Virus record (IMG/VR): IMGVR_UViG_3300042398_000319
Span: 1 to 64,000 of that record
Reading direction: 5' to 3' (one strand)
Source of the DNA: a virus
DNA length: 64,000 nucleotides
Numbering within the stretch: the first letter of the stretch is position 1; each line of letters begins with the position of its first letter. Of the stretch, positions 7,542-64,000 are shown piece after piece. Under the pieces are notes generated by a model. It did no database searches, had not been told where the DNA came from, and saw nothing but the letters and a program-made list of their open reading frames with translations. Made by a program: the position numbers and the translations under genes.

Positions 7542-7564
7542 TACCAGGGGACGCTAAAGAGAGA
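7542..7564 (+). promoter_or_regulatory. Phage RNA polymerase promoter, copy 1 (late fibre operon)
   Basis: TACCAGGGGACGCTAAAG followed by AGAGA. The same 23 bases recur exactly at 52496. The 18-mer spans -17 to +1 if transcription starts at its last G (7559), the geometry of T7-family promoters, and the core AGGGGACGCTA resembles the SP6-group core AGGTGACACTATAG. It lies between the tail chaperone and the GNAT/fibre genes. That the phage's own RNA polymerase uses it is inference. Confidence 0.85.
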
Positions 7565-23774: not shown

Positions 23775-23804
23775 GGTCACCCTGTAAAAAGGGTGGCCTT
23801 TTTT
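23775..23804 (+). terminator. Rho-independent terminator of the late tail operon
   Basis: GGTCACCCT pairs with AGGGTGGCC (9 bp, one G-U) around a 6-base loop and is followed by six T residues. It sits 8 bases after the stop of the last tail gene and just before the early leader region, separating late from early transcription. Confidence 0.9.
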
Positions 23805-23809
23805 ATCAA

Positions 23810-23873
23810 AAAAAGTGAGAAAAATGACGTATCTATAATGAAGAAATATCATAATGATAGAGTACTCAATTTA
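23810..23873 (+). promoter_or_regulatory. Early promoter-like direct repeat, copy 1
   Basis: This block begins with AAAAAGTGAGAAAAATGACG and contains a perfect -10 box TATAAT at 23834. It is repeated at 24016: the first 42 bases are identical and the block ends with the shared TACTCAATTTA. No good -35 box is seen at 16-18 bp, so activity as a sigma70 promoter is uncertain. The paired copies each lie just upstream of a small early gene. Confidence 0.55.
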
Positions 23874-23892: not shown

Positions 23893-24015
23893 ATGACACA
23901 TGTAGATAAACTGGTTATGGCTCTTGGTAATCGCATCCCTAATTCTCGAAGATTAGCTTTAAAGGACTTAACTCCTGCTGCTATTAATCGTTTATTTAGG
24001 ATGAAAAATACCTAG
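23893..24015 (+). CDS. Small basic protein (40 aa)
   Basis: A 40-codon frame from ATG to TAG lying exactly between the two promoter-like repeats. The product is Arg/Lys/Leu-rich with PNSRRLALKDLTPAAINRLF, which could form an amphipathic DNA- or RNA-binding helix. The ribosome site is weak (GAAAG). It could be an early takeover peptide; function unknown. Confidence 0.45.
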   Translation: MTHVDKLVMALGNRIPNSRRLALKDLTPAAINRLFRMKNT

Positions 24016-24080
24016 AAAAAGTGAGAAAAATGACGTATCTATAATGAAGAAATATCAATAAAGATAAAGTACTCAATTTA
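24016..24080 (+). promoter_or_regulatory. Early promoter-like direct repeat, copy 2
   Basis: Second copy of the block at 23810, with TATAAT at 24040, 57 bases before the start of the exported-protein gene at 24102. Its first bases follow directly on the stop codon of the 40-aa frame. The exact repetition of the -10 region and flanks suggests selection or recent duplication. Confidence 0.55.
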
Positions 24081-24101
24081 GTAAACTTAAGGAAAGTTAA
24101 A

Positions 24102-24365
24102 ATGTTAAAAGTATTAATTGCAGTGTCTATTGCATTATTGTCTAGTACCGCCATGGCATCTAAACATGAAAAGTATGTAGATATGTTAATAGAAGAAGGA
24201 GTTTTTAAAGTAGAAGAAAAGGCTAAAGTTATCTGTCAAATGGATGCTTTAGAGGCTTCATTCTATGCTTTCGATAAGGAATTAAAGAAAGCAAAAGACC
24301 CCTTTGCTGTTAAACCAGTAGATCCCTACAAGGTTATAGCAGTATGTAATAAGAAACACAACTGA
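24102..24365 (+). CDS. Small exported early protein 1
   Basis: An 87-aa protein with a classical signal peptide: MLKVLIAVSIALLSS then AMA-S as cleavage site near residue 19. The mature part is Lys/Glu-rich, mostly helical, with two Cys that could pair in the periplasm. Ribosome site AAGGAAAG. An early, exported, small protein in a phage is a candidate for blocking superinfection or altering the envelope; this is inference. Confidence 0.75.
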   Translation: MLKVLIAVSIALLSSTAMASKHEKYVDMLIEEGVFKVEEKAKVICQMDALEASFYAFDKELKKAKDPFAVKPVDPYKVIAVCNKKHN

Positions 24366-24384
24366 TGAGTCTTTATGAGACGAA

Positions 24385-24400
24385 ACCGCTGAGAAGCGGT
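24385..24400 (+). terminator. Weak hairpin after exported protein 1
   Basis: ACCGCT-GAGA-AGCGGT, a 6-bp stem with a GNRA-type tetraloop, followed by CTTGTGTATTTT. The T-rich tail is broken, so this is a weak terminator or an attenuator between two exported-protein genes. Confidence 0.5.
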
Positions 24401-24434
24401 CTTGTGTATTTTCCCCTTAACTATGGAGTTTAAA

Positions 24435-24923
24435 ATGAAAAAGTTCTTGATCGCAGTGTCTTTAAGTGTTGCCGCAGTATCCTCTTTTGCAGAAGAATCT
24501 TTCTGTAAACATAAAGAAGTACTTAAGGTAGGCACTTATGGTGCATTAGCAGGTGCAGCAGCATCTTTGTTAATCCCTGGTGCAGGTCCAGTAATTGCTA
24601 CAAGTATTCTTACAGGTACAGTAGTAACTACAGGTAATGTAGCAGTGTGTGCGTTTGATGAGAAGGATCGTAAGGACAAATTAGCTGCATTCAAAAAAGC
24701 TAACTCTGAACCTACATCTTTTGATAAAGCAGTGGCTAAGCCTGTAGAAGATCGTAGCATAACTGATAAAGCTGTAATCAGCCTTACTCAGGACTACGTC
24801 AATGCAGTTGTTAAGCCAGTAGAAGATCGTAGTATTAAAGAGCAAGCAGTTGTTACAATTTCACAAGGCTACACAAAAGCCCAAGAAAGTGTATCAAAAG
24901 CTTACAGTAACCTTACTAAATAA
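24435..24923 (+). CDS. Exported early protein 2 with internal repeat
   Basis: 162 aa from the ATG at 24435, which follows a GGAG site; in-frame ATGs further upstream lack one. It has a signal peptide (MKKFLIAVSLSVAAVSSFA), then a Gly/Ala-rich hydrophobic segment near residues 35-70 that could insert in a membrane. The C-terminal half holds two copies of a roughly 32-residue unit starting KPVEDRSI and ending QxYxxA. Likely periplasmic or membrane-bound. Its partner is probably the exported protein just upstream; function unknown. Confidence 0.75.
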   Translation: MKKFLIAVSLSVAAVSSFAEESFCKHKEVLKVGTYGALAGAAASLLIPGAGPVIATSILTGTVVTTGNVAVCAFDEKDRKDKLAAFKKANSEPTSFDKAVAKPVEDRSITDKAVISLTQDYVNAVVKPVEDRSIKEQAVVTISQGYTKAQESVSKAYSNLTK

Positions 24924-25036: not shown

Positions 25037-25144
25037 ATGACATACTTTGTTTATAACAAAAAAGGTTATTTGATTACAACTACTACAAGTGTAGAAGAAC
25101 TGAATAAGTTCCTACCTGAACTAGTAGATGTAATTATTTACTAA
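25037..25144 (+). CDS. 35-aa early peptide
   Basis: ATG after AAGGATCTGTT. The product begins MTYFVYNKKGYLITTTTSVEE, with alternating hydrophobic residues, so a small beta-hairpin plus helix is plausible. No family recognised. It is held in the early operon by spacing only. Confidence 0.5.
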   Translation: MTYFVYNKKGYLITTTTSVEELNKFLPELVDVIIY

Positions 25145-25157
25145 TCCTTCTCGGATA

Positions 25158-25229
25158 GAGAGACCCTCCAGGGTATGTACTGGACTTTCTCAGCAGAGAG
25201 ACCTCTTGGGGTAAGTACCAAGTTCTTTT
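25158..25229 (+). ncRNA. Tandem covarying hairpins with GGTAWGTA loops
   Basis: Two units, 38 bases apart (25158 and 25196), each start GAGAGACC and fold the same way: a 6-bp outer stem, a 3/1 internal loop, a 5-bp inner stem and an 8-base loop. The inner stems are TCCAG/CTGGA in unit 1 and CTTGG/CCAAG in unit 2; both members of several pairs changed while pairing was kept. The loops are GGTATGTA and GGTAAGTA. In the outer stem, G-C and G-U pairs interchange between units. This is strong internal evidence for a selected RNA structure in the leader of the gene at 25246. Confidence 0.75.
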
Positions 25230-25245
25230 AATTTTTGGAGTTAAA

Positions 25246-25491
25246 ATGAGTAAATTTCTTTTGTTAAACCCGCTGTATGGAGATAACTTCGGAATTACAG
25301 CGCAAGAAATTATTGAATCATTAGAGGAATTTGGTCTTACCTACATCTTCTCAAATGACACTAAAGGTATACCGGCAATTTATGCCACAAGTAGATCTAA
25401 AGAGTTAATTGAAAGAATGTGTAATGAAGTACAACTTGATGGTTCTATCATCGAGTTTACTACAATCTATGACCAAGTAATCGAGGATTAA
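25246..25491 (+). CDS. Hypothetical early protein (81 aa)
   Basis: ATG after a TTTTTGGAG ribosome site, directly downstream of the tandem hairpins, which would sit in its 5' leader. The product is acidic and alternates strands and helices (FGLTYIFSN, PAIYATSR). Not recognised. Any control by the leader RNA is inference. Confidence 0.65.
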   Translation: MSKFLLLNPLYGDNFGITAQEIIESLEEFGLTYIFSNDTKGIPAIYATSRSKELIERMCNEVQLDGSIIEFTTIYDQVIED

Positions 25492-26233: not shown

Positions 26234-26323
26234 ATGAACGTTTGGAAAGCATGTCTTATTGTAGGTTTAATTTATCTAGCACGTAAAGTTGTAACTTACA
26301 TGGAGAATGCGGAAGCAGAATAA
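26234..26323 (+). CDS. 29-aa membrane peptide upstream of RNA polymerase
   Basis: ATG after AAAGGTATTT. The product has one hydrophobic helix (ACLIVGLIYLA) and an acidic end. It overlaps the first codons of the RNA polymerase frame, so translation of the two may be coupled. Short, but with a good ribosome site. Confidence 0.5.
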   Translation: MNVWKACLIVGLIYLARKVVTYMENAEAE

Positions 26324-28508
26324 AGGAATGACTATAGTTAATAATATATTAGAGAATTTAGTTTCAGATCTTAGAAAAAGACAAGCAGTCTTAAGATCAG
26401 ATCGTAATATTTACACGCATTATCTTAAAGAAGTAGACCCTACTACTCTAGTTGATGTATCGTATCCACACATATTACGAGGTTTAGAAAGACAAGCTAC
26501 TCTAGTAGATATTGTAGCCACCATTGGTCGAAGAGTAAGGCAAATGCTTAATCTTCCTAATGATACTGTGTCAGATGCACAGGTTGGTTGGTTCATATGT
26601 ATTGCTTATATTGAGTGTAATATCCTTACATTCCGATTAAAGTATACCTATAAGAATGGAAAGAAAAGTAAATACAAAGCTTACTTCCTACAGGTTAAAG
26701 ACTGGAAGGCAATTGAACAACTCTGGAGTTTAATTGACCAAAGTAAAGTAGATATCTTTCCATTAAGAGAACAGACTAAGCCTTGGACATCTGCATTTAA
26801 TGTTAATGGTTCACCCATTATTAAGAAAGGCCACCCTAGTGCACTGTCAAAGTTTAGGACTTCAGACAAGCAAGCATTGTTTGATACTCTAAATAAATTA
26901 CAAGCTATTGGATGGCGAATTAACAAGGATGTGTTTACTGTGTATCAGCACTTTTTACATAATCCTTGTCACAATAGCCCTTTCAAGTTACACACAGAGA
27001 TTGATGAAGAGAAGAAACAATCACTTTTGATTGAAGCACAAGGCATTGAAAGACTAGCATTAAATCATCTTGATAATGCTTTTTATCATGTCTATAACTT
27101 TGATTTCAGAGGTCGAGTTTATGTAAATACAGCGTTTCTTCACGAACAATCTAGTGATAATGCAAAGGGCCTACTGTTGCTAGACAAATCAACACCACTA
27201 GGTGAAAACGGTCTGTTCTGGCTAAAGGTACATACGTCAAATTCTTTTGGAAATGACAAGGTGACGCTAAAGCAGAGGGCTGAGTTTGTAGATGAGAATA
27301 TTAATCTATTCTTGTCATATGCAGATAAACCTACTGTTAATCAAGGATGGATGGAAACAGATGCTCCATTTTCTTTTTTAGCTGCTTGTTATGAGCTTAA
27401 GAAAATTAAGAACTGGTTAATGGATGGTAATAACTTAGAAGATTATCCTTGTTCTTTACCTGTATATATTGATGGTTCTAATAACGGTGTCCAGCATCTA
27501 GTTGCTATGTCACAAGATGAAGAGATTGCACCACTAGTTAATTTAGTACCACAAGATACCCCAGGTGATGTGTACATGTATATTGCTAAATACGCATGGA
27601 AACGTTTAGAGGAGCTAGCAAGTCAGCTAACACAAGAGGAACGTGATCAATTTGATAGTGTATACAGTAAGGCTAAAGAGTTACAAAAAGCTTACTTTGA
27701 TGCACCTGAAAAGAGTGAACAAAAATCCTTAGCTTATGCTGCTGCCCAAGAGTGGCGTAATCAGAATCGTTCTATTAGAGAAAAGTTGTTTGCTGTTTAC
27801 TGGCTTAATATTGATAACCCAAAAGATCAACGTAAAGTAGTAAAGAGAAATGTAATGACTCTCGGTTACGGTGGTACTGCGTACGGCATGGGTCAACAAA
27901 TTATTGATGATACCCGTGATATGTCTGAGTATCTTCGTGACAAGGAACACCTCTGGGGTGCTATGTTAGGTGATTTGGTATTTGAGACTTGTTATGAAAA
28001 ACTCAAAGGGCCAGCAACAATGTTACGAATGTTTCAGGACTTAGCGGATAGATCTAATAACAAAGATGTATTCCTACAATGGACTACTCCAGTAACAAAC
28101 TTTCCTGTAGTTCAAGCATATAGAAAACCATCTATTGTTAGAACTAAATTAAAGTACGGTGAAGAAGAACTTAAAGTTCAACTTCAAACATGGGAAGAAT
28201 CAACTATTGATAAAGATTCCCAGAGAACAGGTGCAGCACCAAATATTGTTCACAGTTTTGATGCAGCACACTTGACTATGACTGTATTGTCTGCTCCATA
28301 TGAGATGACTGTTGTTCATGATTCTTTCGGTACCCTGCCTGGAAACATGGATGACTTATTTTATAGAGTAAGAGATCAGTTCGTAGAGTTTTACAAGAGT
28401 AAACCTTTAGAGAAATTACTGGCTGAACTTAATTGTGAAGACCTTATTCCTGAGAGGGGTAATCTCGATGTAAAACAAATATTGTACTCAGATTATGCTT
28501 TTTGTTAA
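26307..28508 (+). CDS. T7-type single-subunit DNA-directed RNA polymerase
   Basis: A 733-aa enzyme that transcribes from phage promoters. Visible signatures are DFRGRVYVN (near residue 266, T7 DxxGR), motif A YIDGSNNGVQH with catalytic Asp near 389, motif B VVKRNVMTLGYGG with Lys and Tyr near 511-520, and motif C VVHDSFGTLP with catalytic Asp near 671. It ends in SDYAFC, like T7 SDFAFA. The specificity-loop region lies around 605-640. The N-terminal domain is some 150 residues shorter than in T7. The start is uncertain: ATG 26307 is used; ATG 26328 would remove 7 residues. An 18-bp phage-promoter-like site lies inside at 27255. Confidence 0.96.
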   Translation: MRKQNKGMTIVNNILENLVSDLRKRQAVLRSDRNIYTHYLKEVDPTTLVDVSYPHILRGLERQATLVDIVATIGRRVRQMLNLPNDTVSDAQVGWFICIAYIECNILTFRLKYTYKNGKKSKYKAYFLQVKDWKAIEQLWSLIDQSKVDIFPLREQTKPWTSAFNVNGSPIIKKGHPSALSKFRTSDKQALFDTLNKLQAIGWRINKDVFTVYQHFLHNPCHNSPFKLHTEIDEEKKQSLLIEAQGIERLALNHLDNAFYHVYNFDFRGRVYVNTAFLHEQSSDNAKGLLLLDKSTPLGENGLFWLKVHTSNSFGNDKVTLKQRAEFVDENINLFLSYADKPTVNQGWMETDAPFSFLAACYELKKIKNWLMDGNNLEDYPCSLPVYIDGSNNGVQHLVAMSQDEEIAPLVNLVPQDTPGDVYMYIAKYAWKRLEELASQLTQEERDQFDSVYSKAKELQKAYFDAPEKSEQKSLAYAAAQEWRNQNRSIREKLFAVYWLNIDNPKDQRKVVKRNVMTLGYGGTAYGMGQQIIDDTRDMSEYLRDKEHLWGAMLGDLVFETCYEKLKGPATMLRMFQDLADRSNNKDVFLQWTTPVTNFPVVQAYRKPSIVRTKLKYGEEELKVQLQTWEESTIDKDSQRTGAAPNIVHSFDAAHLTMTVLSAPYEMTVVHDSFGTLPGNMDDLFYRVRDQFVEFYKSKPLEKLLAELNCEDLIPERGNLDVKQILYSDYAFC
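27255..27272 (+). promoter_or_regulatory. Possible internal phage promoter in the RNA polymerase gene
   Basis: GACAAGGTGACGCTAAAG matches the window's promoter 18-mer at 15 of 18 positions, including the whole GACGCTAAAG core, and has the AGGTGAC form of SP6-group promoters. It also encodes ordinary protein sequence (NDKVTLKQ) of the RNA polymerase, so a chance match is possible. Confidence 0.35.
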
Positions 28509-28604: not shown

Positions 28605-29111
28605 ATGGCTATTTTGAAAAATGTTGAGTTATTCTACCCACGTCTTGATCCCAAGAAACCAAATGCTCGATTTAATAAAGAGCAACCTACATGGGAAGTT
28701 CAGATTCGAACTCGAGACAAGAAAGTTAAAAATGAGTGGGCTGCACTCAACTTGAAGCCTAAGACTGTAGAAGATGATGACGGTAAGGTATTTTATTCTG
28801 TTACTCTTCGCAAGAAGTCTAAAAAGAAAGATGGTGAAGTTAATCAACCTGTAAAGGTTATTGACGGTGGCCTAAATGATATTAACCCAATGAGCATTGG
28901 TAATGGCTCAATTGGTAATGTCCGTATCTTTCAATATGAGTATGGTGATGAGAAAAAGATTGCCTCTATGTTGATGGCAGTTCAAATTACTAAACTTAAC
29001 GAGTACATTCCAAAGGCATCTGATGATGAATTTGAAATGACTGAGACAGAGATTGTCCGTGTAGCAGATGCTGACGGTGGTGACGATGATGAGGATGACA
29101 ATCCTTATTAA
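28605..29111 (+). CDS. Single-stranded DNA-binding protein, gp2.5-like
   Basis: A 168-aa protein with an AAGGA ribosome site. The N-terminus (LKNVELFYPRLDPKKPN) and central beta-rich body, including a Lys-rich strand RKKSKKK, resemble phage ssDNA-binding proteins of the gp2.5/DUF2815 kind. The C-terminus is strongly acidic (GGDDDEDDNPY), the usual contact tail for polymerase and helicase. First gene after promoter copy 2. It would coat single strands and organise the replisome. Confidence 0.85.
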   Translation: MAILKNVELFYPRLDPKKPNARFNKEQPTWEVQIRTRDKKVKNEWAALNLKPKTVEDDDGKVFYSVTLRKKSKKKDGEVNQPVKVIDGGLNDINPMSIGNGSIGNVRIFQYEYGDEKKIASMLMAVQITKLNEYIPKASDDEFEMTETEIVRVADADGGDDDEDDNPY

Positions 29112-51873: not shown

Positions 51874-51891
51874 CACCAGGGGACGCTAAAG
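51874..51891 (+). promoter_or_regulatory. Phage RNA polymerase promoter, copy 3 (wall hydrolase)
   Basis: CACCAGGGGACGCTAAAG: 17 of 18 positions equal to copies 1 and 4. It starts at the base after the exported-protein stop and ends 17 bases before the SleB-type hydrolase ATG. No hairpin follows, unlike the other copies. Confidence 0.82.
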
Positions 51892-51908
51892 AATAACAAG
51901 GTATTCAT

Positions 51909-52495: not shown

Positions 52496-52518
52496 TACCA
52501 GGGGACGCTAAAGAGAGA
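52496..52518 (+). promoter_or_regulatory. Phage RNA polymerase promoter, copy 4 (packaging and lysis)
   Basis: TACCAGGGGACGCTAAAG followed by AGAGA, 23 bases identical to copy 1. It lies just after the long terminator and before the packaging, lysis and head genes. From about +6 the RNA can form a small hairpin (AATCC at 52518 with GGATT at 52535). Confidence 0.85.
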
Positions 52519-61274: not shown

Positions 61275-64000
61275 ATGCCAACACCAATTAATACAGATCT
61301 TTATGATCGTATTATACAACACTTGGCTGATACAAGGCTATACGAGGCGGAAACCTCTACTAATGTAAGTAGGGGCATCCGTAGACATCAAAAAAGACTT
61401 AGAGATTTACTAAAGTCTAATATTAAAGCTGATGTTAAACCAGAAGTTACAAGGGCTACTCGTGAATTACACATGATAGTTGATAACTCTGTTACTGATT
61501 ATGCAGGAGCAGCAGTTAACTTCCATTCTAATAACCTAGATAGAAGTGCAGGTAACTTTTTTAGGGTTCAAAGGCCTAGAGCTAGTGACGCTATTCCTAA
61601 ACTAATTGGACCTAATATCAGTGCCTCTAAAACACTTAGAGAACATTTTGATACAATTGGTACAGCTGAATTAGCTAGAATTGATGGAAAAATTAAGTTA
61701 GGCCTGGCTGATGGTAAATCAACTAAACAAATCTTGGATGAGGTAATTCGTACTACTGCGCTTACTGAAGTACAGGCTAAGGTTCTTGTTAGAACAGCAA
61801 TTACCAATACTCAATCTACTGCAATGAATTTAGTAATGAGTCGTAATGAAGAGCTATTAATTGGTTACAGATTTACTGCTGTTCTTGACAATCGTACTTC
61901 TCCTATTTGTGCACACCACGATGGTCAGGTATATAAGATTAATGATTTAAGGTTTAGGCCCCCACTTCACTGGAACTGTCGTAGTTCTATGGTTCCTATT
62001 CTAAAGAATAAAGAACAACTACTAAAATCTCTTGAAGAGAAAGAGGATAGTAGACTTAAAGCTAATAAATTAAAAGAAACAAATCCAACATTACTTGATG
62101 GTAACCCACCTCCAGTAGAAACCTATAGTATTTGGCTTAAACGTCAACCTATGGCTGTGCAGGTTAAGCATTTAGGCAGTGAAGAAAAAGCTGGACTTTT
62201 ACAGAAAGGTGCACTAGAGGTAAAGGCGTTTACTACTGCTAAAGGTCAACAGCTAAGTATTGCGGCATTAAGAAAGCTTGATAATGCAAGAACACTGTGG
62301 TTTCCAACTAGACAAACTGCTGTATCTAAGGCTGAAGAAAACTTATTTCAGCTTAATGTAGCTAGACCTAATGAGTTACTACGAAATACAGAGGCTCAAA
62401 GACAATTAAGAGAGATGTATATAGCTGACTCAGATAATGTGGCTCAAGCTATTTCTTTGACAGACTATCGTGGTACTACACTAGCAGGTAAACGATCAGT
62501 TAGGATTAGATCTAACAATGAGTTTGATGAACGTAACAATAGCTTTGATCCATTTACTGGTGAACAAAGTTCTACACTATTGTATGATCCTGACTATATT
62601 ACACTTCAAGAACGACTTGACTTTGTTAAGAACTCAAAGGCTTTATCACAAGATCAAAAAGTTTGGATCAGAGACTTTGTGGAGAGTCTTGATGAGTCAG
62701 TATCTGTTAATCAACAAACCGCTGTAGCTGAAAATCTTCGTGTTGTGTTTGAACGATACAACAATAACAAAGAACCTTGGGTTAACTTCATGAACGTTGT
62801 TCGTGGAGAGATGCAGTACTCTGTTGTTAATACTAGTCGTATTCTTGATCGTAGGTCTAGAGCTAGATCTCAACAGTTTGACTCTTATGGGGTTGCCGGT
62901 GAGCCAGCTAAAGTCCAGATCTTTGGTAGATACTACACGTTTGATGAAATTACAAATAACACACTGTTAAACCAAAGATATAAAGAATCATGGGAAACTC
63001 GTCTTGGTAGACCTCTAGCCCGTAGACTTCTTTACACTGGACGTACCCCTCTTTATACATGGTTTAGAGGTCCGCTAACTAGGGATACAAAATCTTTTAG
63101 TAAACGACTTGAAACATTTGTCAGAGAAGAAATTCCGGGTGGAGCTTTATGGCTAGATCGTAATAAACCAAAAGAAGGTTTAATTGCACAGTTTATTAGA
63201 GAAAAGAAAGAAAGCTGGAGAAGAATTCTAGATTTAGAATTTTTGTACAAAGGTAATAAACAAAGTTATCTACAGCAATATATTGAAAACAAAACAAATG
63301 ATAAGTTTATTGTTGATGCATTATCAAGGGTAATTAGCGTTGTAGCAGATGGTAAATCTACTGACTATGACACATTGGCAATTAACATTGGTAAAGAACT
63401 AAGAAGCAACTGGAAGTATCCAGAGTTTCCTTTCTTTAAATCAACATTAAAAGATTATCATGAGGATGGCTCACAAATTTTAACTGCGTTAAGAGACTCA
63501 GGTTATATTAGAGTAGTTAAAAGAGGTAAGACGAGAAGATCAGTTGTAGACCTAGAGACAGGTCGTGCAAGTGGTCCGTGGAGGGATACTATCAGCCGTG
63601 AAGTTCAAATTCTAAATAAAGATATGCTTGATCTTCAACGGGTTAATAGGTCATTGATTGTAAGTCAACGTATAGGTATTGTAAACGATAGAGACCGACT
63701 CTTTGTTAGGCCTGGACAGAAAACTTATTTTGATGCTAGAGGTAGAAATACTGGGATCCCTATTATTACCCGTAGAGCTAATGCTAACTATGATAAGATA
63801 CTAATTGATAATGATTTTGCTAATATGCTTAATCATACTATGGCTACTAAATACGAAGTTGATAATGAATATGCTGGATTCATGGAAGATGTTGTGCGCT
63901 TTAGAGATCCCCGTGGGAATGTAAAGAAGTATGATGACTTAAATGACTTTAGAAAACTTATTTTAACTCGTGGTGATCAAGGCTATAGTTTTATACAAAC
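61275..64000 (+). CDS. MuF-type head morphogenesis protein, very long (partial)
   Basis: AAGGAGTTCAA before the ATG. The frame stays open to the window end: at least 908 aa. Residues about 170-242 hold the Mu gpF/SPP1 gp7 domain: VRTAITNTQSTAMN, LDNRTSPICAHHDGQVY and PPLHWNCRSSMVP with the conserved Cys, His and Asp. Usual MuF proteins are 250-500 aa; here more than 650 residues follow, helical and basic, without a family I know. LLYTGRTPLYTWFRG and TYFDARGRNTG are notable motifs. The C-terminal part could be an injected effector or an internal head protein. Confidence 0.85.
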   Translation, partial: MPTPINTDLYDRIIQHLADTRLYEAETSTNVSRGIRRHQKRLRDLLKSNIKADVKPEVTRATRELHMIVDNSVTDYAGAAVNFHSNNLDRSAGNFFRVQRPRASDAIPKLIGPNISASKTLREHFDTIGTAELARIDGKIKLGLADGKSTKQILDEVIRTTALTEVQAKVLVRTAITNTQSTAMNLVMSRNEELLIGYRFTAVLDNRTSPICAHHDGQVYKINDLRFRPPLHWNCRSSMVPILKNKEQLLKSLEEKEDSRLKANKLKETNPTLLDGNPPPVETYSIWLKRQPMAVQVKHLGSEEKAGLLQKGALEVKAFTTAKGQQLSIAALRKLDNARTLWFPTRQTAVSKAEENLFQLNVARPNELLRNTEAQRQLREMYIADSDNVAQAISLTDYRGTTLAGKRSVRIRSNNEFDERNNSFDPFTGEQSSTLLYDPDYITLQERLDFVKNSKALSQDQKVWIRDFVESLDESVSVNQQTAVAENLRVVFERYNNNKEPWVNFMNVVRGEMQYSVVNTSRILDRRSRARSQQFDSYGVAGEPAKVQIFGRYYTFDEITNNTLLNQRYKESWETRLGRPLARRLLYTGRTPLYTWFRGPLTRDTKSFSKRLETFVREEIPGGALWLDRNKPKEGLIAQFIREKKESWRRILDLEFLYKGNKQSYLQQYIENKTNDKFIVDALSRVISVVADGKSTDYDTLAINIGKELRSNWKYPEFPFFKSTLKDYHEDGSQILTALRDSGYIRVVKRGKTRRSVVDLETGRASGPWRDTISREVQILNKDMLDLQRVNRSLIVSQRIGIVNDRDRLFVRPGQKTYFDARGRNTGIPIITRRANANYDKILIDNDFANMLNHTMATKYEVDNEYAGFMEDVVRFRDPRGNVKKYDDLNDFRKLILTRGDQGYSFIQ

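Follow-up and report, generated by a model that had tools for sequence, protein, structure and literature searches.

A pseudoknot-and-hairpin RNA element conserved before early genes in two groups of uncultivated phages, a candidate translational leader

Genomic surroundings of the element

The window, meaning the whole 64,000-nt stretch of DNA analyzed here, is part of a 76,946-base IMG/VR virus record. Its structural operon closes at an intrinsic terminator, and two repeats containing TATAAT come next, around 23811 and 24017. The repeats are about 42 bp long, near-identical, and without a recognizable -35 box, and the first lies directly after the terminator. One or two copies occupy the equivalent place in the window-group relatives examined. 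The RNA element that is the subject of this work lies 1.1 kb past these repeats, flanked by a 35-aa open reading frame (ORF) and an 81-aa gene, and ORFs of 35 to 38 aa homologous to the upstream one precede most of its instances. The original prediction had assigned the repeated structure to an early gene's leader, which held: the element ends 23 nt before an ATG, and from both it and the gene that starts there the phage RNA polymerase gene is 1.1 kb further downstream. After the polymerase gene, positions 28605 to 29111 encode what we take to be a gp2.5-like homolog of a single-strand binding protein. The features around the element are as follows.

23775-23804, + strand: intrinsic terminator ending the structural-gene operon (sequence GGTCACCCTGTAAAAAGGGTGGCCTTTTTT)
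23811-23852, + strand: probable early promoter 1, a repeat with a perfect -10 hexamer (TATAAT, 23834-23839)
24017-24058, + strand: probable early promoter 2, a repeat with a perfect -10 hexamer (TATAAT, 24040-24045)
25037-25144, + strand: conserved 35-aa ORF whose stop overlaps the element; homologous ORFs in relatives
25223-25245, + strand: A+U-rich spacer with ribosome-binding site GGAG at 25237-25240, from the sequence
25246-25491, + strand: downstream early gene, 81-aa LLLNP protein, without a Pfam or PHROG match
26307-28508, + strand: T7-like single-subunit RNA polymerase (PF00940, 4.3e-82; phrog_414)

Several other observations were made along the window. Positions 23893 to 24923 form a variable cassette whose ORFs are present in relatives that carry the element but absent from those that do not; two of these ORFs have signal-peptide-like starts (24102 and 24423). 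Three widely spaced copies of ACCAGGGGACGCTAAAGA are present (7543-7561, 51875-51893, and 52497-52515), possibly a promoter or another repeated signal. A look-alike of the element, TAGAGATCCCCGTGGGAATGTA, lies at 63902-63923 inside a 1473-aa gene, three mismatches from the core. Similar sequences occur in relatives (G006:4441 and G011:43649), and the look-alike is probably coding sequence.

Predicted fold of the element

The element was originally described as two units spaced by 38 bases. Both are present, at 25158 and 25196, each with GAGAGACC, and their loops are GGTATGTA and GGTAAGTA, as claimed. The window contains the pattern GAGAGACCN{2,10}GGTANGTA twice, where dinucleotide shuffling predicts 0.00 occurrences. 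The inner stems TCCAG/CTGGA and CTTGG/CCAAG are likewise there, and they covary. What did not survive comparison was the 6-bp outer stem with a 3/1 internal loop, since six pairs in that geometry are kept in only 1 of 31 single-unit relatives. The claimed stem, GAGAGA/TTTCTC, can be drawn only in the window group (6/6 pairs, G-U included). The partner of its GAGAG arm is instead a TTCTC lying upstream, a pairing that forms in all 34 distinct instances and covaries (TTCTC/GAGAG versus TTCAC/GTGAG). The long-hairpin reading was therefore correct in its inner stem and loop and wrong in its outer stem, the better fold being a pseudoknot followed by a hairpin. Similarly, the span given as 25158-25229 located the units correctly but missed the 5' arm of the first; the tandem runs from 25144 to 25222. 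Its parts, all on the + strand, are listed below.

25144-25184, +: unit 1, pseudoknot and hairpin (cmsearch, 49.5 bits at 25142-25184; comparison)
25144-25147, +: unit 1, stem S1 5' arm ATCC, pairing with GGAT at 25153-25156; covaries in relatives
25148-25152, +: unit 1, pseudoknot strand TTCTC in the S1 loop, pairing with 25158-25162; TTCAC/GTGAG variant
25153-25156, +: unit 1, S1 3' arm GGAT (comparison)
25158-25162, +: unit 1, pseudoknot strand GAGAG (comparison)
25163-25165, +: unit 1, invariant ACC, which could pair with loop GGT at 25172-25174; never varies
25167-25184, +: unit 1, hairpin P2, TCCAG / loop GGTATGTA at 25172-25179 / CTGGA; compensatory changes
25185-25222, +: unit 2 (cmsearch, 44.0 bits; comparison)
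25185-25186 and 25192-25193, +: unit 2, S1 reduced to CT/AG
25187-25191 and 25196-25200, +: unit 2, pseudoknot strands TTCTC and GAGAG
25201-25203, +: unit 2, ACC
25205-25222, +: unit 2, P2, CTTGG at 25205-25209 / GGTAAGTA at 25210-25217 / CCAAG at 25218-25222

S1 of unit 1 begins on the final A of the TAA stop codon of the upstream ORF. In the conserved unit, the loop of a 4-bp stem S1 (NNNC/GNNN), UUC[U/A]C, pairs with a downstream G[A/U]GAG to give an H-type pseudoknot. The trinucleotide ACC follows, and after one variable base (six in a long-P2 variant) comes the 5-bp hairpin P2. The loop of P2, GGUA[A/U/G]GUA (GGUADGUA), is nearly fixed across relatives. Pairing of ACC with GGU across this loop might form a second small pseudoknot; both strands are invariant, hence this pairing gives no covariation signal. 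Units measure about 38 to 51 nt, and the commonest form is one unit of about 47 nt. Because most phages carry a single copy and not two, the tandem arrangement is not essential.

The stems vary while their pairing is kept. S1 is ATCC/GGAT in the window and elsewhere ACTC/GAGT, GCTC/GGGC, ACCC/GGGT, AACC/GGTT, or AGCT/AGCT; P2 appears as CTTGG/CCAAG, TCTAG/CTAGA, or TCCAG/CTGGA, and as CAGG/CCTG in the long variant. Compensatory changes are found in S1, in the pseudoknot, and in P2, where they affect 4 of the 5 pairs. These changes in three helices bear out the earlier claim of a selected RNA fold. In an alignment of 21 sequences, 100% of cells pair, both sides have changed at 7 pairs, and the covariation score lies far from the reach of shuffles and slid registers. 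These sequences were picked for an intact S1, and some linkers were padded with N to hold the register, the padded cells being left uncounted. A second set of 34 distinct instances was collected without requiring an intact S1; here 127 of 136 S1 pairs form, where shuffling gave at most 114. The second unit of the window group, whose S1 is reduced to CT/AG, and a few others have an incomplete S1.

The single-sequence fold energy of the region is no better than that of shuffles (z about 0). The case for structure rests on comparison, not on energy, because the plain fold is no stabler than shuffled sequence. Judged by this comparison of sequences, the repeat is real and selected as RNA, and the predicted pseudoknot-and-hairpin structure is strongly supported, to the point that we regard it as nearly certain.

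Distribution among phages and novelty

We scanned IMG/VR with GAGAGACCN6GGTAWGTA, which returned 55 contigs; 50 carried the element, and the other 5 were chance matches in which the stem did not form or the context was wrong. With further scans and a protein-guided search, the number of IMG/VR contigs with the element rose to about 65. A relaxed core, GAGACCN6GGTANGTAC, added one true instance (L125) among newly fetched matches, the others having at most 3 of 5 stem pairs. The stem TTGGGGTANGTACCAA without GAGACC, which acts as a control, gave new matches that lacked the element context and were taken as chance.

The element is common to two distantly related phage groups. Members of the window group have tandem units and RNA polymerases 83 to 93% identical to that of the window. 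The second group, for example L016, has SU10-type portal and capsid proteins and a far more distant RNA polymerase (about 29 to 42% identity over matched segments); its members mostly have a single unit and in some cases two, separated by about 380 nt. A T7-like RNA polymerase was matched in 14 of 20 element-bearing records, the six others being shorter fragments. Each element-bearing record scanned has one or two sites, all among the first early genes. The element is always on the same strand as, and immediately before, an early gene, and in several records of the second group it stands about 16 to 18 kb before the RNA polymerase gene. A close relative (G022) has no element, though its core genes are mostly 85 to 100% identical, so the element is dispensable there.

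The closest isolate by RNA polymerase is DSS3_VP1 (Naomviridae; 50% identity); its best model match, 13.6 bits and inside an annotated gene, was taken as chance. No instance of the element was found in 84,980 prokaryote genomes, in PLSDB plasmids, or in 50,697 phage records; three matches to prokaryote genomes in a relaxed scan had 2 or 3 of 5 stem pairs and were considered chance. A search of the whole window with the Rfam 15 covariance models recovered only a tRNA, and at a relaxed E-value nothing credible matched window positions 25100-25260 or L016:8840-8970. The original prediction had stated that no described RNA has this form, which agrees with the lack of an Rfam match, and had named an absence of homologs with conserved loop and stems as grounds for rejection; such homologs were found. 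As far as could be checked in the openly licensed literature and Rfam, the element has not been named previously.

Distance to the start codon and downstream genes

The spacer between P2 and the ATG is 22 to 34 nt long in 41 of 44 distinct cases (median, 32). In the three exceptions, of 50, 52, and 55 nt, a self-complementary hairpin insert of about 20 to 25 nt is present, folding at about -9 to -12 kcal/mol, so that the effective distance is kept. In loci with two copies some 380 nt from each other, every copy is followed by its own ATG at 29 to 34 nt or by a hairpin-lengthened spacer. The spacers are 69% A+U, compared with 60% in sample contigs, and have almost no predicted structure. Among the 44 distinct spacers, no conserved pairing of the element with the ribosome-binding site was found; pairing to that site, or of loop GGUAA with spacer UUACC, is seen in some loci only.

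The downstream gene varies among phages, belonging to the LLLNP family or to either of two families of about 94 to 111 aa, which may be related to each other. One of the downstream families of the second group models as an OB fold, albeit at low confidence (mean pLDDT, 63), and the model matched several OB-fold proteins, including CspA and IF-1, with E values of 0.006 to 0.2. OB folds often bind nucleic acid. The LLLNP protein models as an alpha/beta fold with weak matches only in a fold search. Element-less relatives start the LLLNP gene at an in-frame ATG farther upstream, and in some of them this ATG forms an ATGA overlap with the stop codon of the small ORF.

A second leader element

A second conserved leader element lies 0.35 to 0.8 kb upstream of the main one in the second phage group (L016:8480-8540, + strand; L074, around 1082 and 1376; L032, around 4856 and 5097). 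Its hairpin reads (N)AGC-G[A/C]TCTT-GCT(N), and an upstream AAGATC or AAGAGT can pair with the loop; a further hairpin, enclosed by this pairing, shows compensatory variation. One or two copies are present per locus, at a median of 28 nt before an ATG. The L016 copy has no credible Rfam match. The same short hairpin inserts follow both types of leader element, those of L010, L024, and L054 resembling TATGGGATGGTAACATACCATCT and those of L022 and L046 being GTGATGCATAAAGCATCAT, which suggests that the spacer inserts are a small mobile hairpin.

Proposed role and alternatives

RNA-level selection, the fold, the polarity, the position in the early operon, and the fixed distance to the start codon are all supported by comparison among the relatives. 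We propose, as a reading for which we judge the case nearly balanced, that the element is a cis-acting leader RNA controlling translation of the adjacent early gene. In the early mRNA, each unit would fold as an H-type pseudoknot joined by ACC to the hairpin with the constant GGUADGUA loop. The fold would sit about 30 nt before the start codon, beside the open A+U-rich spacer that holds the ribosome-binding site. An RNA-binding protein, either of the phage or a conserved host one, most likely recognizes the constant loop and the junction, and the bound protein would alter how readily ribosomes reach the neighboring site, in the manner of T4 gp32 at the pseudoknot of its own leader. Protein binding, the identity of the protein, and whether it represses or activates are what we infer here. 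A role in translation is favored because the distance to the start codon is fixed, which neither antitermination nor processing would need. The unstructured A+U-rich spacers, the upstream LLLNP start in element-less relatives, and the OB-fold model of a second-group downstream family also count for translational control, and the same layout in a second, unrelated pseudoknot-like leader element supports it. Against it count the changing downstream gene, the absence of the element from G022, and the lack of conserved pairing to the ribosome-binding site. When gene content was compared between element-bearing and element-less relatives, no partner gene common to both groups emerged, so that the candidate binder would be a host factor or a phage protein that is widely shared. 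The LLLNP protein was rejected as the cognate binder, since its identity in element-less relatives (88%) exceeds that in some element-bearing ones.

A role in mRNA processing or stability, in which a ribonuclease cuts at the pseudoknot or is blocked by it and the 5' end of the downstream cistron is protected, is unlikely. The element is intercistronic in an early polycistronic transcript, its pseudoknots are compact and in the window group tandem, and an open spacer follows the fold, as might suit such a site. T7 RNase III sites and exonuclease-blocking pseudoknots are comparable cases. However, a T7-type RNase III site is a long irregular duplex between early genes and the stems of 4 to 5 bp here are too short for RNase III; moreover, one or two sites per genome among the first early genes do not punctuate the whole transcript, and a tight distance to the ATG would serve no need. 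Antitermination of the kind mediated by HK022 put or a nut site, in which the nascent fold would let host RNA polymerase read through to the phage polymerase gene, fits the position before that gene (1.1 kb in the window and about 16 to 18 kb in several records of the other group), and the tandem folded units of the window group resemble the two stem-loops of put, with putR lying about 270 nt from its promoter start (PMC9378689). Yet a fixed 22 to 34 nt to the start codon would not be expected, duplicate copies precede two different genes 380 nt apart, and the solved put RNA is described as two stem-loops with no mention of a pseudoknot (PMC9378689), so that we hold antitermination to be distinctly unlikely. 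A boxA/nut site was also considered and rejected: CTCTT is not kept in the variants CCCTTCTC, GTCTTCAC, and TCCTTCTC, although the pseudoknot pairing is.

Constant unpaired nucleotides between variable stems, a compact pseudoknot, and tandem copies in the window group would suit a metabolite riboswitch with the loop and junction as its ligand pocket. This we consider improbable, since no expression platform is seen (neither conserved pairing to the ribosome-binding site nor a terminator) and the downstream genes encode small phage proteins without metabolic annotation. Nor does a signal in the DNA, whether a phage RNA polymerase promoter, a dyad protein-binding site, or an origin, seem at all probable. 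The carrier phages do encode T7-like RNA polymerases and hairpins are dyads, but changes among TCTAG/CTAGA, TCCAG/CTGGA, and CTTGG/CCAAG would ruin a half-site code, and pseudoknot pairing is meaningless in duplex DNA. A phage polymerase promoter would be expected in many copies per genome, for which one or two true sites per scanned record are too few. An intrinsic terminator, with a G+C-rich stem and a U tract, fits poorly as well; most relatives have no U tract after P2, and only the window group is U-rich there. The promoter and terminator readings are excluded or unlikely. Least probable of all, to a degree that we would call very remote, is a self-cleaving ribozyme of a new small class: the small size, the pseudoknot, and the constant core nucleotides would suit one, but the element is unlike the known Rfam classes, there is no special reason to expect cleavage, and ribozymes do not usually show a fixed link with a start codon. 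Cutting across these alternatives, and in our estimation rather unlikely, is the idea that the element represents a new class of small double-domain RNA, known only from uncultivated phages, which would time early translation by sensing a ligand or a factor of the host, or by self-cleavage.

Comparison with known systems

The preQ1-I riboswitch is a small H-type pseudoknot in leader position with constant unpaired bases, and the element shares this compact leader pseudoknot and these constant bases but has no Rfam match and no recognizable expression platform. HK022 put is likewise a folded RNA early in a phage early transcript. It is about 70 nt long with two stem-loops and no described link to a start codon (PMC9378689), whereas the element is a pseudoknot with a hairpin and is tied to the start codon. 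The T4 gene 43 operator is an 18-base hairpin that lies about 40 bases ahead of the start codon and has a conserved loop (PMC3014915). P2 likewise spans 18 bases (5 bp and an 8-nt loop) with a conserved loop; the gene 43 loop has a UAAC core and a different sequence, and that operator has no pseudoknot and serves autoregulation of one gene.

The closest layout is that of the T4 gene 32 operator. In T4 and RB69, the gene 32 leader has a small pseudoknot, an unstructured spacer, and then the ribosome-binding site of the next gene (PMC535899). In 2010, this pseudoknot was called possibly the sole viral example serving translational autoregulation (PMC3014915). The resemblance is one of layout, in that a pseudoknot precedes the ribosome-binding site and the spacer is unstructured. 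The sequence differs, the element has a second domain in the hairpin with the constant GGUADGUA loop, its spacer is 22 to 34 nt compared with more than 40 in T4, and its units are sometimes tandem. Also, the T4 leader is bound by gp32, whereas a protein partner of the element is putative. Gene 32-type operators precede a gene for a single-strand binding protein (SSB), unlike the genes downstream of the element, and the 81-aa product in the window has no family match. With a downstream gene that is not an SSB gene and binding that is putative, the element is not filed as a member of that operator type. Structured leader RNAs of uncultivated phages such as this one are missing from Rfam, and the constant loop offers a ready bait for a partner protein. 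A conserved pseudoknot leader in two distant groups of environmental phages would extend gene 32-like control well beyond T4.
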